From: a virus
Length of the DNA stretch: 25,965 bases
Direction: 5' to 3' (one strand)
Virus record (IMG/VR): IMGVR_UViG_3300049893_001033
Span: 1-25,965 of that record
A program made the position numbers and the translations under genes. The stretch's first letter is position 1. The number at the start of each line of letters is the position of its first letter. Of the stretch, positions 11,130 through 16,925 are shown piece by piece. Under the pieces are notes generated by a model. That model made no database searches and was not told the DNA's origin. It worked only from the letters and a program-made list of their open reading frames with translations.

Positions 11130-13669
11130 CAACCATCCTCGGCCTCGACCGCCAGGACCACGGCGGATACCGTCAGCGGAAACGGGTCGCTCTTGGTGAT
11201 GGAGATGTCGCCATCGCGATCGAATCCATACTCCAGATTCCGCACCACCCCGGTGAACGGGTAGGTCTGGGTCGCCTCACCGTAGCCCACTATCTCGGAG
11301 TTGATCTTGACATCGCCGCGCGTGCAATGAAGCAGCAGGAAGAGCTCTTTCAGCGTGATGATTCGGCCCAGGCTCGGCCCGGTACGGGTTTCGACAACCG
11401 GCCGCATGAGGGTCAGCGTTTCTCCGTAGGAAAACCCGGCCTCGAGCGTCGTGTGGGTCGTGTCGACCGTAGCGACGCCATTCGTTACCGTCACCTGGTA
11501 AGCCGTCGTGCCGTCCCCGATCACATAGATCACCTCGCCGTTGAGGTGGGTCAGGCCACCGAGGCTATCCGATGCGATTCCGGAGTAGTAGGCCGCCGAG
11601 TCGAGGTTGAGCTGACCGTCGAAGACCTCGATGTATCGGTAGGTTCCCGAGTTCAGGACGCGCTTGACGCTCACCCACACCTCGTCGGAGGTGCCGCAGT
11701 TGTTGGCCATGACTCCGACCGACTCGAACATGCCATCGGTGTAGTCCTGGTCCGGGCCCGTGACGAAATCGGACCAGGCCCGGATGTCCTCCTCCGGTTT
11801 GTAGGCGCACACCACCATTGCGCCGTCGTTGCGCGTGGCAAGAAGGTAGGGGTCCTGGGACGAAAGATACGCCAGGTAGGTGAGCTGCTTGGTGCCGTTG
11901 AACAGGTTTTCGGCGATCAGGGACAAATCCCCGGATACGTAGCGATCCCGCTCCGCCGAGTAGTCCATCTCCCGGATCTTCTGGTCGCCTCGCTGTAGGT
12001 AGATCACGAAGTTTTCGGCCTGAATCGCGTCCACCGTGATCGACGAGCCAACCTTGCTCTGGTGCTTTGACTGGATGTTCGTGGGCGTGATAGGGTCGTC
12101 GTCCGCCCCGCCCTTGGCCACGTATTCCGAGCCGATCGTTCCGAGCACGAGCTTGCCCGTCGACACGGCCCAGCGGATCAGGTTGGCCTTGCCAGAGGCC
12201 ACCAGGAACTTGATGGAATCGTCCGGGTTGGAGCCAACCCCGAAGTTTTCGTAATCGCCCGTAACGGACAGCCAGAACGCCTCGGGCTCGGTCGTCGAGC
12301 CGGCAAAGCCAAGCCTCTGGTCGTGGAAGAACACCACTCCCGGGTACCCACGGCTGGCCGACCAGGTGTCGCTTTCGAGCGTCCACAGCCCCGCCCCGAT
12401 CTGCCAGGGGCCGGACTCGGTATCGCCGTCTTCCTCGGCGTTGAGGTTGGCCTGGGAAACATTCTCGAATGTCTTGAGGATCTGCACCAGCACCGTGGTC
12501 GCGTTGGTGTAGGAGTAGATCTTGGCGACCCCGTCCCGACCGATGATGTATTTCCCGACATCGGTTGATCGAAAGGCGTCCCAGTCCGTCCACTCCAGGG
12601 TGGGGAAGACATTCCCCGTGCGGGTCCCGCTCGCAACGGCTGACCGGACGGTCGCTCGAGTCCCAGGAGGGCCGGTCTTCTCCAGCACCAGACGAGCGTA
12701 GGGAGACAGGCCAATCGTTGCCGTCCCGCTCGTGAGCGAGGTACCAGAGAAGGCGGCTGTGATGTCGACGGTGGCTTGGGTCGTAGAGCTCACCGAGACG
12801 ATGGTCGCGAAACCCGTCCCAACCGACAGGGTTCTGCCCGCGTCAGACTCCAGGAAAGGGGCATGCGCCCCGGCGAACGTGGCTGTCCGGGCAGTACCAA
12901 CTCCTGAGGCGCTGAGCGTCAGGGTGTCCGTCCCGCTGAGCGTGTAGGAGTTGCCGGCTTCGTAGGTCGGCGGTGGGACGAAGGTCACGTCGGCGAGCTG
13001 GAAGGACGTGGAGGTTACCCGCGTCAGTTTCGCCGGAGCATGGGCCGTGTGGGCTATATACATCACGTCGTTTTGCTGGGCGAACCTGAGCGACGGCAAC
13101 TCAGATTCTGTGTAGGTAGTCGTCACCTCAACCGGGGTGCCAGTGATTGTCCAAAGTCCGGAACCAAGCGACACTCCGGAAAACGCGGCGAGGATATCGA
13201 CGACGGCAGTGGTGGTGTTGGTCACCGTCCGGATGCGGGCCCGGCCAGCGCCAAGCGTGATCTCGCGCTCCTGGTCGATGGCCGTGCTCGTGAAGTATGC
13301 GCTCCCTGCGGTGACGTTGATCCCGTAGCCGGTCACGGCATCGAGCGTCAAGACGATGGCCGGGGTGCTCGAGGCCGCCCGGAGAAGGGCCCGGTTGTAG
13401 TGAAACCGGATGTAGAGGTCGCCGATCTCCATCATGTACGAAACAGAGGTCGAGTATTCGAACGGGACCATACGGCACTTCTTGTTCTGGAACTTGGCCT
13501 TGGCGACGTAGAACAGGCCGGCCCGCTTGGCGGCGCCCCCCTGGGGCTGGACGACCATGTTCCTGATGCATCGGGCGCCCCGGTTGTACTTCTTGAGATC
13601 GGTGCGCCCGTCGAGTTTTCGGCTGAGCGTTCCAGCCGAAAAGTCGTTCTGTATAGAGTGAAGGCTCAC
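11129..13669 (-). CDS. Tail tubular protein B (nozzle)
   Basis: The 846-residue protein opens with SLHSIQNDFSAGTLSRKLDGRTDLKKYNRGA, the classic podophage nozzle N-terminus (F-x-A-G-x-x-S, then GR-x-D-x-x-K-Y). It continues with RNMVVQPQGGAAKRAG-like beta strands. The start codon is GTG at 13669, one base after the TAG of tail tubular A, with GAGGT upstream. Later landmarks are GVVFFHDQRLGFAG (about 444-457) followed by EAFWLSVTGDYENF, both characteristic of this family. Three copies of a small beta domain are inserted at about 110-177, 247-319 and 355-432. The protein forms the hexameric distal tail tube and holds fibres. Length is slightly above T7 gp12 because of the inserts. Confidence 0.92.
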   Translation of the reverse strand: MSLHSIQNDFSAGTLSRKLDGRTDLKKYNRGARCIRNMVVQPQGGAAKRAGLFYVAKAKFQNKKCRMVPFEYSTSVSYMMEIGDLYIRFHYNRALLRAASSTPAIVLTLDAVTGYGINVTAGSAYFTSTAIDQEREITLGAGRARIRTVTNTTTAVVDILAAFSGVSLGSGLWTITGTPVEVTTTYTESELPSLRFAQQNDVMYIAHTAHAPAKLTRVTSTSFQLADVTFVPPPTYEAGNSYTLSGTDTLTLSASGVGTARTATFAGAHAPFLESDAGRTLSVGTGFATIVSVSSTTQATVDITAAFSGTSLTSGTATIGLSPYARLVLEKTGPPGTRATVRSAVASGTRTGNVFPTLEWTDWDAFRSTDVGKYIIGRDGVAKIYSYTNATTVLVQILKTFENVSQANLNAEEDGDTESGPWQIGAGLWTLESDTWSASRGYPGVVFFHDQRLGFAGSTTEPEAFWLSVTGDYENFGVGSNPDDSIKFLVASGKANLIRWAVSTGKLVLGTIGSEYVAKGGADDDPITPTNIQSKHQSKVGSSITVDAIQAENFVIYLQRGDQKIREMDYSAERDRYVSGDLSLIAENLFNGTKQLTYLAYLSSQDPYLLATRNDGAMVVCAYKPEEDIRAWSDFVTGPDQDYTDGMFESVGVMANNCGTSDEVWVSVKRVLNSGTYRYIEVFDGQLNLDSAAYYSGIASDSLGGLTHLNGEVIYVIGDGTTAYQVTVTNGVATVDTTHTTLEAGFSYGETLTLMRPVVETRTGPSLGRIITLKELFLLLHCTRGDVKINSEIVGYGEATQTYPFTGVVRNLEYGFDRDGDISITKSDPFPLTVSAVVLAVEAEDG

Positions 13670-13670
13670 C

Positions 13671-14501
13671 CTAGTACCTCACGTCGATCAGCGTGTTCGA
13701 CTCGAACTCCTCCGGGGTGGCCTCCTGGTCCGTGGCCGTCCGAGCCTCCTGGAGAATCTCTCGGTAAAGCCGCCACATGGCATCCGCCCGTTCCTGCCCC
13801 TTGGCCAGTGGAACGGCTATCACGGCGGCAAGGTGGGCCGTGAAGGCGTCGATCAGCAACGGCCCGAAACTGGTAGTGGCCAAATCGGTGATGTACTCGA
13901 CCTCGAGCTCGTCGGTGTTCGTGAAGAGGTAGGAGCCGACGCGGGCGTACTTGGCCTCGAGTCTCCCGAAGCTGGTGCTGCTGTCGGACTCCTCGTTGAT
14001 CCGCCAGACTTTCAGCATGCCGGTCGGGCGGGCGATCATGAAGTCCCAGTCAAAAGCCGGCTCGGGAGTGTAGAGTCTCCACGATCCGGTGGCGATAGCC
14101 GAGGTATCGGCAAAGGCCTCGTCAATCGTAGCCGTTACGATTGCGGTACTGGTGAAGCCCGTGATGGTGGCCTTTCCGGCCACGCCGTCGCCCCAGATCC
14201 TCCAGCCGTCCGTTGCGTGGGCGGCAAGAAACGGAGTCCCCGAGGCGGTGAAGGTGACGCCGGTAGTATCAACCACTGTAGCGCCAGCCCCTGGGGTTAC
14301 CGTGCCCGATGGCTCCGTGTAGGCATACAGGATGTCGTAGACCAGAGCCTCCTTCCACGGATGAGCTTGGAGCGTAGACTCTTTGGTCTGTTCGAAGAAG
14401 CGATTGGCCAGGATCGCCCGCCGGGTCGTATCGCCAAGCGCCGAAATCGAATCTTCTCCCAGCCTAGCCAGGGCCATGTTCGCAAGGTCCACGTCAGCCA
14501 T
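13671..14501 (-). CDS. Tail tubular protein A (gatekeeper)
   Basis: The 276-residue protein begins MADVDLANMALARLGEDSISAL, the standard gatekeeper start. It follows with ARNRFF-like ANRFFEQTKESTLQAHPWKEA (about 32-52), which is diagnostic for tail tubular A. An extra beta domain of about 85 residues (62-147), absent from T7 gp11, is inserted before WDFMIARPTGMLKVWRI. The C-terminal helices contain AFTAHLAAVIAVPLAKG. A clean AGGAGG site sits 5 bases before the ATG, 9 bases after the preceding stop. The protein forms the dodecameric ring between portal and nozzle and closes the DNA channel. The insert shares its pattern with three domains in the nozzle protein next door. Confidence 0.92.
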   Translation of the reverse strand: MADVDLANMALARLGEDSISALGDTTRRAILANRFFEQTKESTLQAHPWKEALVYDILYAYTEPSGTVTPGAGATVVDTTGVTFTASGTPFLAAHATDGWRIWGDGVAGKATITGFTSTAIVTATIDEAFADTSAIATGSWRLYTPEPAFDWDFMIARPTGMLKVWRINEESDSSTSFGRLEAKYARVGSYLFTNTDELEVEYITDLATTSFGPLLIDAFTAHLAAVIAVPLAKGQERADAMWRLYREILQEARTATDQEATPEEFESNTLIDVRY

Positions 14502-14510
14502 TCAGTCCTC

Positions 14511-15290
14511 CTAGCAGCTTTGACGGCCGAGCGAGTGGCCGCACGCGGTCAATCCAGTAGGAAAGCACGATACAGTCGGTGTATACACCTGTGGGATCCA
14601 TGTTGGCGTTGGTATCGGGCATGACTGTGGGCACGATTCCGGCCCCAGTGATGGGCCACATTCTGACAGTCCAGTTGGAATAGGCGGCAGATCCTCCACG
14701 AATACCGCCACGTCCATTTCGTCGAAGGCGAATACGTCGAACCCGACACTGCTGTTGCCGAATTCAATGGACGTTACGCCCAATTCTCCCGGGTCCAATT
14801 TGAACCCGTAATAGAGGACTGCGCCGCCCCATACAGTGAAAGGAGGTGGGCCCGGATGGAACGAATGAGGGACTGTTAGGATAGTGGTCGACAAATCCGT
14901 GTGCGTCAGCGTCAACGTTAATCGACCATTGAAGTCCCCTACGTCTACCGCCTTGAACCCGAATGCGCTGATGGGTGTGTCGAAGTCAATACTGAAGTCG
15001 TTGCGAGAATCCCAGAATTTGTCCCCGTGCGTGGGATAACGACCGCTACCGTTGGTAGATGGAGAGAAGACCTCATCGACGAAGCCGCCGCCCTGAAGGG
15101 TCGCGGTAAGAGATCCGAATGTTATGTCAAGCGGTGCCGGCGTGTCGTCCGCGATGCCCTCGAACGACTCCGTCCCGAGAGAGACGATCGCCGCCAGGAA
15201 CTCCGTTTGCTTCGCGTCGGAGTTAGGGTGGGCTATGCGTGTGGCTTCGCCAGCCCCGGGCCAATCCTCAGCGAAGTAGGTTGTCGGCAT
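14511..15290 (-). CDS. Beta-sandwich protein with duplicated Cys-rich tail
   Basis: This 259-residue protein is unlike usual podophage core genes. The segment FLAAIVSLGTESFEGIA (about 31-46), then a beta region with ISAFGFKAVDVGDFNGRLTLTLT (about 107-129), resembles the extracellular beta-sandwich of PEP-CTERM-type bacterial surface proteins. This is a family resemblance from memory; no PEP-CTERM anchor is present. The C-terminus carries two near copies of a Cys motif, PTGLSECGPSLGPESC (205-220) and PTGLTACGHSLGRQSC (244-259), with more Cys between them. It has no signal peptide. It sits between head and tail modules, so it is probably a virion surface or decoration/adhesion protein (inference). 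Its Shine-Dalgarno is separated from the ATG by a hairpin, described separately. Confidence 0.78.
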   Translation of the reverse strand: MPTTYFAEDWPGAGEATRIAHPNSDAKQTEFLAAIVSLGTESFEGIADDTPAPLDITFGSLTATLQGGGFVDEVFSPSTNGSGRYPTHGDKFWDSRNDFSIDFDTPISAFGFKAVDVGDFNGRLTLTLTHTDLSTTILTVPHSFHPGPPPFTVWGGAVLYYGFKLDPGELGVTSIEFGNSSVGFDVFAFDEMDVAVFVEDLPPIPTGLSECGPSLGPESCPQSCPIPTPTWIPQVYTPTVSCFPTGLTACGHSLGRQSC

Positions 15291-15324
15291 TTGAACGGGG
15301 GAGCCGGAGCTCCCCCGCCTCCTT
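15288..15324 (-). promoter_or_regulatory. Ribosome-binding site split by a C(UCCG)G hairpin
   Basis: In the mRNA sense, AAGGAGG (15318-15324) is followed by one C and a perfect 8-bp stem GGGGGAGC / GCUCCCCC (15309-15316 with 15297-15304). The UCCG loop is closed by C-G. GUUCAA and AUG (15288-15290) come next. Linear spacing from AGGAGG to AUG is 27 bases, far too long, but with the stem folded out it is 7. No other Shine-Dalgarno exists for this gene. It lacks a U-run, so it is not a normal terminator. Confidence 0.7.
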
Positions 15325-15326
15325 GG

Positions 15327-15827
15327 TTAGTTGGCAGTGCCGCCAGAGTAGACGATGCAGCCCTCGAGGATGTCGCTGGTGTCAACGTCTCCACCAGCCA
15401 CGGTGACAGTGATGTCGATCCCGCTCTGAGAGTTGAGAGACAGGATCACTCGGTCCCCGGCATTCGTGCCGCTACCTCCTGCGAAAACACCAGGGGTCGA
15501 GGAGATGTCCTTTCCGTCAAGGATTTCATCTCCGGCAGCGTTGACGGCGGTTCCAGTTTCGTCGGTATGGGCAGCATAGCCCACGTCCAGGGTCGCACTC
15601 GCTCCAGCGTCGGAGCAGAAGAAGGAACACAGTCCCGGGAAGATGGATAGCGACCCGGCCGGCAGGGTCACGACTGCTGTGGCCGCCACCGTTCCGCTGC
15701 CTGCCGCAGTGCACTTGAAGTACGCAAAACGCAGCCCGCCCAGATACTGCGGAGCGAGCTTCTCCTGTACAAGGTCGACGCTTTGCTGAGTTTTTCCAAC
15801 GTTGACGGTGTAAGTCGTTGCAGCCAT
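15327..15827 (-). CDS. Small head-associated structural protein
   Basis: The 166-residue product is beta-rich and small-residue rich, with no membrane segment. It carries a pattern I recognise from proteins encoded immediately after the capsid gene in many podophages. The pattern is GGLRFAYFKCTAAGSGTV, then VTLPAGSLSIFPGL, then ATLDVGYAAHTDETGTAV, and a final SGIDITVTVAGG. Such proteins are usually annotated as structural or decoration proteins; direct proof of function is lacking. A strong AAGGAGG lies 10 bases before the ATG at 15827. It is preceded by a 234-base non-coding leader containing alternative RNA pairings, suggesting specific control of its dose relative to the capsid protein. 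Confidence 0.78.
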   Translation of the reverse strand: MAATTYTVNVGKTQQSVDLVQEKLAPQYLGGLRFAYFKCTAAGSGTVAATAVVTLPAGSLSIFPGLCSFFCSDAGASATLDVGYAAHTDETGTAVNAAGDEILDGKDISSTPGVFAGGSGTNAGDRVILSLNSQSGIDITVTVAGGDVDTSDILEGCIVYSGGTAN

Positions 15828-16061: not shown

Positions 16062-16925
16062 TTAGGCACTTACACTGATCTCCACTATTTTCTCGTCTTC
16101 GATCCGGGTGGCGCCAAACGTTGCGTAGCACGCGACCTGCGTCGCATGGCTCTTGCCAGGCATCTCGTCGATCTTGGAGGTGATGTCCATCCCGACGTTG
16201 AAGCCCATGGAATCCCGCAGCCAGGCCATGACCGCCTTGCTGGAAGCGTCCGTTGAGGTCACGATTCGGTTCGAGACAATGAAGTTGAAGCCGACGAAGG
16301 TGTTGACCTTGCCGTCGACAAGAGCCTTCACCGTGTTGTAGTCGGCGCTCTTTACCTCGGTGGTGTTGAGGAGAGTTGTGATGTCCTTCGGCCGGCAGAC
16401 GATCCACCGCTCGGCGTCTGGATCCACTTCGTTGCCGTCGAGAACCTCCTTGGCCGAAAGCAGCTTGGCCAGGGTGAGGCCGGAACCCGCGACGGCGACC
16501 TTCTGGCCAGAGGGGAAAGCCGAAGTCGTGGTGCCATCAACTCCCGTGTAAGCGGTGCCGTTCATGGCCGACAGGATCTCGTCGTCCATCGCCCGGCCCA
16601 TTGCCCACGCGGCATTGGTGGCGTACTCGGAGGTCGGATCAATCAGCATCCTGACCTTGTCCTGCTTGTCGATCAGGTCAGCCCACTCGTAGTCGACCAT
16701 GGTCAGCCGCCTGCGTGTGTGCTGGCTGTTCACCAGTGTGGTGTCACCGTGGCGAACGGTTTTGCGGACGGCCGCCGTCTTGGCCAGGCGCTCGAAGAAG
16801 TACTGCTCCGCCTGGACGTTCTCGGCTCGCACCTTGTCCCGCAGCCGGGAGCCCATCTGCTGGGCCAGCATGATGACGTTCGCGCCATATGCCCTTACTC
16901 GTGCTTGGGTGATTGTGTCAGACAT
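16062..16925 (-). CDS. Major capsid protein
   Basis: The 287-residue product matches the phage capsid protein group common in podophages with this gene order (Pfam-type Phage_capsid_2, from memory). Landmarks are the N-terminal QARVRAYGANVIMLAQQMGSRLRDKV helix, the AEQYFFERLAKTAA segment, and the RRLTMVDYEWADLIDKQDKVRMLIDPTSEY region (about 73-102; key residues W-A-D-x-I-D-x-x-D). DDEILSAMNGTAYTGVDG, PDAERWIVCRPKDI and a C-terminal THATQVAC-like segment ending in KIVEISVSA follow. It follows the scaffold gene and precedes a head-associated gene. The ATG at 16925 has only a modest GGGGA site. Its upstream 271 bases are strongly structured and contain a perfect TTGACA, so it may have its own promoter and RNA control. 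Confidence 0.92.
   Translation of the reverse strand: MSDTITQARVRAYGANVIMLAQQMGSRLRDKVRAENVQAEQYFFERLAKTAAVRKTVRHGDTTLVNSQHTRRRLTMVDYEWADLIDKQDKVRMLIDPTSEYATNAAWAMGRAMDDEILSAMNGTAYTGVDGTTTSAFPSGQKVAVAGSGLTLAKLLSAKEVLDGNEVDPDAERWIVCRPKDITTLLNTTEVKSADYNTVKALVDGKVNTFVGFNFIVSNRIVTSTDASSKAVMAWLRDSMGFNVGMDITSKIDEMPGKSHATQVACYATFGATRIEDEKIVEISVSA

Follow-up and report, generated by a model that had tools for sequence, protein, structure and literature searches.

Ribosome-binding sites that are shortened by a hairpin are known from very few genes, and those found in the open literature are bacteriophage T4 genes 25 and 38. In T4 gene 38, RNA structure cuts the spacing between the Shine-Dalgarno sequence (SD) and the start codon from 22 to 5 nt, and in T4 gene 25 it cuts the spacing from 27 to 11 nt; mutations that destabilize the structure reduce initiation in both genes, and the gene 25 arrangement originated within close T-even phages (PMC3014915). 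A hairpin also follows the capsid gene of Burkholderia phage Mica. It is annotated as a terminator, and the next gene has its annotated SD 3' of the hairpin, unlike at the locus described here. In phage T7, the T-phi terminator follows gene 10. Our search of the open literature for terminators located within ribosome-binding sites returned no relevant phage precedent.

The window analyzed here is a 25,965-base virus record from a podovirus related to pelagiphage HTVC010P, and its major capsid protein is ~49 to 56% identical to the pelagiphage major capsid proteins among its best matches. The capsid, 166-aa, 259-aa, and tail genes are all on the minus strand. The features of the locus, from the capsid gene to the tail gene, are as follows.

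16062 to 16925, minus strand: major capsid protein gene, HTVC010P-like (phrog_3437, E = 1e-83)
15327 to 15827, minus strand: 166-aa gene, 3' of the capsid gene (open reading frame with homologues in three relatives, L002 to L004)
15318 to 15324, minus strand: SD AAGGAGG of the 259-aa gene, 5' of the hairpin (GGAGG equivalent in L003 and L004, absent from L002)
15296 to 15317, minus strand: 9-bp hairpin CGGGGGAGC-UCCG-GCUCCCCCG, between SD and AUG (fold and homologous junctions)
15288 to 15295, minus strand: UUCAA spacer and AUG (15290-15288), with no SD within (M1 aligns in four homologues)
14511 to 15290, minus strand: 259-aa gene, its start putatively served by the split site (homologues in L002 to L004)
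13671 to 14501, minus strand: tail gene of the tail tubular A type, next after the 259-aa gene (phrog_394)

The junction ahead of the 259-aa gene

Read in mRNA sense, the junction runs UAA (15329-15327), CC, AAGGAGG (15324-15318), CGGGGGAGC UCCG GCUCCCCCG (15317-15296), UUCAA, and AUG (15290-15288). The UAA stop codon of the 166-aa gene is 2 nt ahead of the downstream SD, and the stop and the start of the 259-aa gene are 36 nt apart. The distance from AAGGAGG to the AUG is 27 nt in the raw sequence and 5 to 7 nt with the hairpin folded, the unpaired flanks being 0 and 5 nt for the 9-bp stem (1 and 6 nt if 8 bp are counted). The original prediction had placed a perfect 8-bp stem capped by UCCG between SD and AUG; the stem is indeed perfect and UCCG-capped, while its length is 9 bp. 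The predicted near-optimal spacing agrees with the 5 to 7 nt that remain outside the stem.

No alternative SD for the 259-aa gene was found within 20 nt of its AUG. Over the 22 nt that precede the start codon, pairing with the anti-SD amounts to -1.9 kcal/mol, against -5.6 to -12.2 kcal/mol for most other genes of the window; pairing is also weak for the 540-aa, 72-aa, 150-aa, and 61-aa open reading frames, whose starts are uncertain. The 166-aa gene has a normal SD of its own (AAGGAGG at 10 nt), as does the tail gene at 13671 to 14501 on the minus strand (AGGAGG at 5 nt). The anti-SD energies across the window genes confirmed that AAGGAGG, 27 nt from the AUG, is the sole SD of the 259-aa gene. 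The site thus resembles those of T4 genes 25 and 38 in that the SD is too distant, with no alternative, and a stable hairpin, with its stem fully paired in the model, brings the spacing near the optimum.

Thermodynamic folding of the 51-nt interval in RNA sense formed the expected hairpin at -24.0 kcal/mol (z = -3.8; 1 of 200 shuffles was equally good), and the hairpin by itself gave -20.8 kcal/mol (z = -4.3). In the modeled fold the stem forms completely, the AUG is unpaired, and the SD is roughly half accessible; RNAfold extends the stem by two G-U pairs, using two Gs of the SD. When temperature was modeled, the stem stayed paired from 10 to 75 C. Because of this, no temperature effect is predicted, contrary to the suggestion that translation might be temperature sensitive, and an RNA thermometer was rejected as a candidate. 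An Rfam scan gave 0 matches at gathering score.

Perfect stems of at least 9 bp with loops of 3 to 8 nt are expected 0.75 times in a window of equal composition, and two were found. By an arithmetic estimate, one would fall within this 36-nt gap by chance in about 1 of 1000 cases. GGAGG occurs in ~1.3% of random 10-mers from these genomes, which is also its chance frequency per genome in the 10 nt past the stop codon. Because such 9-bp stems are not unusual over the window as a whole, the case must rest on conservation. A perfect 10-bp stem with a 7-nt loop (TTTTCGGCTG/CAGCCGAAAA) is located at 13616-13642 of the window (minus strand), within the first codons of the 846-aa tail gene, ~27 nt past its start codon.

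Since the change from 27 to 5 to 7 nt fits the T4 model and the same derived-subclade pattern is seen, the junction is probably an accommodated ribosome-binding site of the T4 gene 25/38 type that is superimposed on an older post-capsid hairpin. The original prediction rightly named T4 gene 38 as a precedent, and gene 25 is another (PMC3014915). Like the window, T4 gene 25 has a 27-nt distance between SD and AUG with an intervening hairpin and is derived in one subclade (PMC3014915); unlike in the window, its folded spacing is 11 nt rather than 5 to 7 nt. The window in turn differs from gene 25 in that the hairpin, as judged from sequence alone, predates the arrangement and doubles as a marker of where the capsid module ends. 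T4 gene 38 shares the shortening of the SD-AUG distance by a hairpin, but it is an unrelated gene in an unrelated phage, and the mutational support comes from T4 only.

Hairpin and SD in related phages

The simplest rival explanation is that the hairpin is only a transcription terminator, an attenuator, or a stabilizer of the mRNA 3' end, in which case the SD-like motif would be incidental and the 259-aa protein would be made by reinitiation after the 166-aa gene or from an SD-less start. We consider this unlikely, if still a serious contender. The 36 nt between stop and start are in keeping with such a transcript-only hairpin. However, most window genes have an SD of their own, and the window hairpin is not followed by a U-run.

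Homologues of the 166-aa and 259-aa proteins were found in three contigs only, L002 to L004, which are syntenic and share the order of capsid gene, 166-aa-type gene, 259-aa-type gene, and tail gene. The 166-aa homologues at the equivalent position are 52 to 62% identical, and the 259-aa homologues 35 to 45% identical. For the 259-aa gene, a DNA search and a tblastn search of a phage collection found nothing; for both proteins, single-sequence and profile searches of viral contigs found nothing beyond the same three contigs, and a search of a genome collection found none. The junctions of the three relatives, with the hairpin in parentheses, are as follows.

L003: UAAGGAGG-AUGC-(GGGGAGCC UCCG GGCUCCCC)-CUUCCCAG-AUG
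L004: UAAGGAGG-UC-(AAGGGGGGC UUCG GCCCCCCUU)-CCUAA-AUG
L002: UAACCCCCAAC-(AGUGGUGGGGGGU GAAA GCCCCCUACCACU)-CCUUCCUUC-AUG

A hairpin was present at the junction in all four homologous genomes, the window included, with stem sequences and loops that differ. An SD lies 5' of the hairpin in three of the four genomes and 3' of it in none: L003 and L004 have GGAGG after the stop codon and ahead of the hairpin, with no SD afterwards, and L002 has the hairpin and the homologous gene with no SD on either side. Comparison of the homologues therefore supported the original prediction in part, with a hairpin of unrelated stem sequence in every genome and an SD without alternative in three, the SD-less L002 being the exception. 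The UCCG loop was not specific, since the homologues have UCCG, UUCG, and GAAA loops, and the flanking distances, which had been expected to be fixed, vary among the four genomes. As the four-genome alignment misaligns the stems, they were compared singly, and no covariation is claimed from these four.

Because L002 has the hairpin and the gene without an SD, not every relative needs the SD, a point in favor of a hairpin that acts only on the transcript. Against such a hairpin, GGAGG was kept in three of the four genomes while the remainder of the junction diverged. The count of three does not stand for three independent events, since the four known family members are related.

Another explanation is a translational repressor or switch, in which the SD would be held in an extended stem and freed by a factor or by the ribosome on the upstream gene. 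In L003, GGAGG can pair with CUUCC in a C/U-rich flank past the stem, in L004 it can do so partly, and in the window the outer G-U pairs take two SD bases. However, pairing of the SD is weak in the window, impossible in L002, and not conserved, and there is no temperature response over 10 to 75 C, making a switch quite improbable. Recoding, in which the ribosome would read through or hop over the UAA to fuse the 166-aa and 259-aa proteins, was rejected as hardly credible: the window genes are in-frame across the UAA with an open linker and the stem begins 9 nt past the stop, but the stop-to-start offsets, which in the four genomes are 39, 40, 37, and 50 nt, are not frame-consistent, and the frame relation is not conserved. 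That a stable, functionless stem arose in the gap by chance is just as implausible and is already refuted by the conserved position of the hairpin, since all four relatives and the wider family carry hairpins of differing sequence at this junction, even though perfect 9-bp stems are not rare.

The accommodated site would be built on a hairpin that is found more widely. HTVC010P-like loci that do not carry the 259-aa gene also have a strong hairpin, directly 3' of the gene that follows the capsid gene. We compared 27 distinct HTVC010P-like junctions, namely 23 further ones plus the window and L002 to L004, and found a perfect stem of -10 kcal/mol or lower in 21. The remaining six (L018, L023, L028, L035, L071, and L074) were missed by the perfect-stem script; they are or resemble bulged or long-loop stems in RNAfold, with energies of -18 to -29 kcal/mol. 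In the flanks of the capsid gene, used as a negative control, such stems occurred in 0 of 27 cases downstream and 1 of 27 upstream. A hairpin also occupies the equivalent place in the named pelagiphages HTVC010P, Lederberg, Baldr, Skadi-4, and HTVC035P. Recognizable SDs of the next gene (AGGAG, AAGG) are mostly 3' of the hairpin in the wider family, and some junctions have just weak SD-like letters 5' of it. T-runs follow the hairpin in some relatives (L008, L051, and HTVC010P; one U-run reads GGGGGUUGCAAAAGACCCCCUUUUUGUU) and not in others.

Since relatives lacking the 259-aa gene have the hairpin at the corresponding position, it appears to be older and to have a role where the capsid module ends. 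Comparison of the junctions indicates that HTVC010P-like phages had the hairpin ancestrally, before the SD arrangement arose, and that the SD 5' of the hairpin is a local arrangement, a trait of a derived subclade. The view that the hairpin arose just to shorten the spacer does not fit these relatives, where the SD mostly comes after the hairpin or is missing. A hairpin that is ancestral here whatever gene follows is also in line with a transcript-only role, as is the annotation of the post-capsid hairpin of Mica as a terminator. Like T7 T-phi and the Mica terminator, the window hairpin is strong and closes the capsid module, ahead of the tail genes; unlike several relatives, which have a U-run, the window copy has none.

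Two annotation points concern the same region. The annotated start of HTVC010P gp11 (L145:4380) falls within the post-capsid hairpin, and the ATG just past the T-run is the likelier start. The tail tubular protein is one 276-aa open reading frame in the window (13671-14501, minus strand) when compared with L145:4380-5187. Its N-terminal part in HTVC010P is a separate ~75-aa open reading frame, with the rest beginning 1 nt later, and the protein is split in the same way in Lederberg, HTVC035P, and Skadi-4.

The same order in an unrelated lineage

A second lineage (L150 to L229) was reached by scanning viral contigs for AAGGAGG, a hairpin, and AUG in this order. Because the total of scan matches was about the chance level estimated for such a pattern and collection size, only full-stem matches and a re-test with the capsid protein were used. 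The re-test, seeded from one scan match, sampled loci via the capsid C-terminus and not via the DNA pattern. It gave 80 loci with 45 distinct junctions, every one with a stable hairpin.

The order in this lineage is a protease-capsid fusion gene (Pfam Phage_capsid and Peptidase_S78; phrog_617), UGA, AGGAG(G), a terminator-like hairpin with a T-run, and the AUG of a conserved ~60-aa protein, most junctions being at about 859 to 905 of L150 to L229. The ~60-aa gene is coding, with changes mostly at third positions. The terminator-like hairpin was found in all 37 aligned distinct capsid-gene junctions. An SD core (AGGAG, AAGGAG, AGGAGG, AAGGAGG, or GGAGG) was located between the UGA stop and the stem in 34 of the 37 and between the stem and the AUG in none; the other three had no SD. 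The raw spacing is 28 to 35 nt and the folded spacing mostly 9 to 15 nt, the one row with a G-U pair, L215, having been mis-measured by the strict-pair script. The stem covaries: one internal pair is G-C in 28 junctions and C-G in 9, the outermost pair is G-C, U-A, or A-U, and 98% of cells pair. A U-run follows the stem in nearly all junctions.

The second lineage is like the window in having the same order and a comparable spacing right after the capsid gene, with the SD before the hairpin and none after. It is unlike the window in its typical U-run, its GNRA loop (mostly GCAA), and its longer folded spacing, and the capsid and next genes are unrelated. The SD 5' of the hairpin in 34 of 37 junctions argues against an incidental motif beside a transcript-only hairpin, although AGGAG could in part be kept for pairing with the U-run. 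Other full-stem cases of SD, hairpin, and AUG were found at L109:5294-5336 (after a major tail protein gene), L110:4594-4636, and L096:6090-6130 (ahead of a 713-aa open reading frame).

Expression of the 259-aa gene and its product

From the sequence, the predicted fold, the conservation of hairpin and SD, and the lack of another SD, we infer how the SD may be used, how the hairpin may be looped out and attenuate transcription, and what level of expression may result. The strong hairpin would mark the end of the capsid module, that is, the capsid gene and the gene following it, and would act on the capsid mRNA, most likely as a transcription attenuator or terminator or as a barrier to 3' exonucleases. 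In the GC-rich subclade with the 259-aa gene, read-through transcripts would be translated from the accommodated site: the 30S subunit would pair with AAGGAGG beside the upstream stop codon, and the folded hairpin would be looped out, leaving the AUG 5 to 7 nt away instead of 27 nt. The 259-aa protein would then be expected to be produced in smaller amounts than the capsid proteins of the same operon.

Transcription attenuation or mRNA-end protection by the post-capsid hairpin is likely from its position. The window hairpin is GC-rich, as in a terminator, at -20.8 kcal/mol; directly 3' of its stem is UUCAA in place of a U-run, and a terminator scan was negative for it. Since this hairpin has no U-run and was not called terminator-like, its putative role as an attenuator is read from position only.

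We tentatively propose, at somewhat short of an even chance, that one element depresses the next gene at the level of transcription as well as translation and ties both to the upstream gene, and that it originated independently in at least two phage lineages. Occurrence of hairpin-shortened ribosome-binding sites in a further phage group and, with dozens of distinct covarying sequences, in an unrelated lineage would turn the arrangement into a general device, possibly missed by gene finders and ribosome-binding-site calculators. Lying where capsid modules end, it would offer phages a simple means by which expression could be made to fall steeply between the capsid proteins and the minor structural proteins of a single operon.

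The 259-aa gene has the codon-position pattern of a coding gene. The model of its protein is beta-rich with low confidence (pLDDT 64), and Foldseek gave weak matches, the best solved structures including carbohydrate-binding modules and adhesin-type jelly rolls. These matches are compatible, but weakly, with a surface or decoration protein. A C-terminal cysteine segment, CGPSLGP..CPQSCPIPTPTW..VY....CGHSLGRQ, is common to the homologues in L003 and L004 and is partly present in L002.
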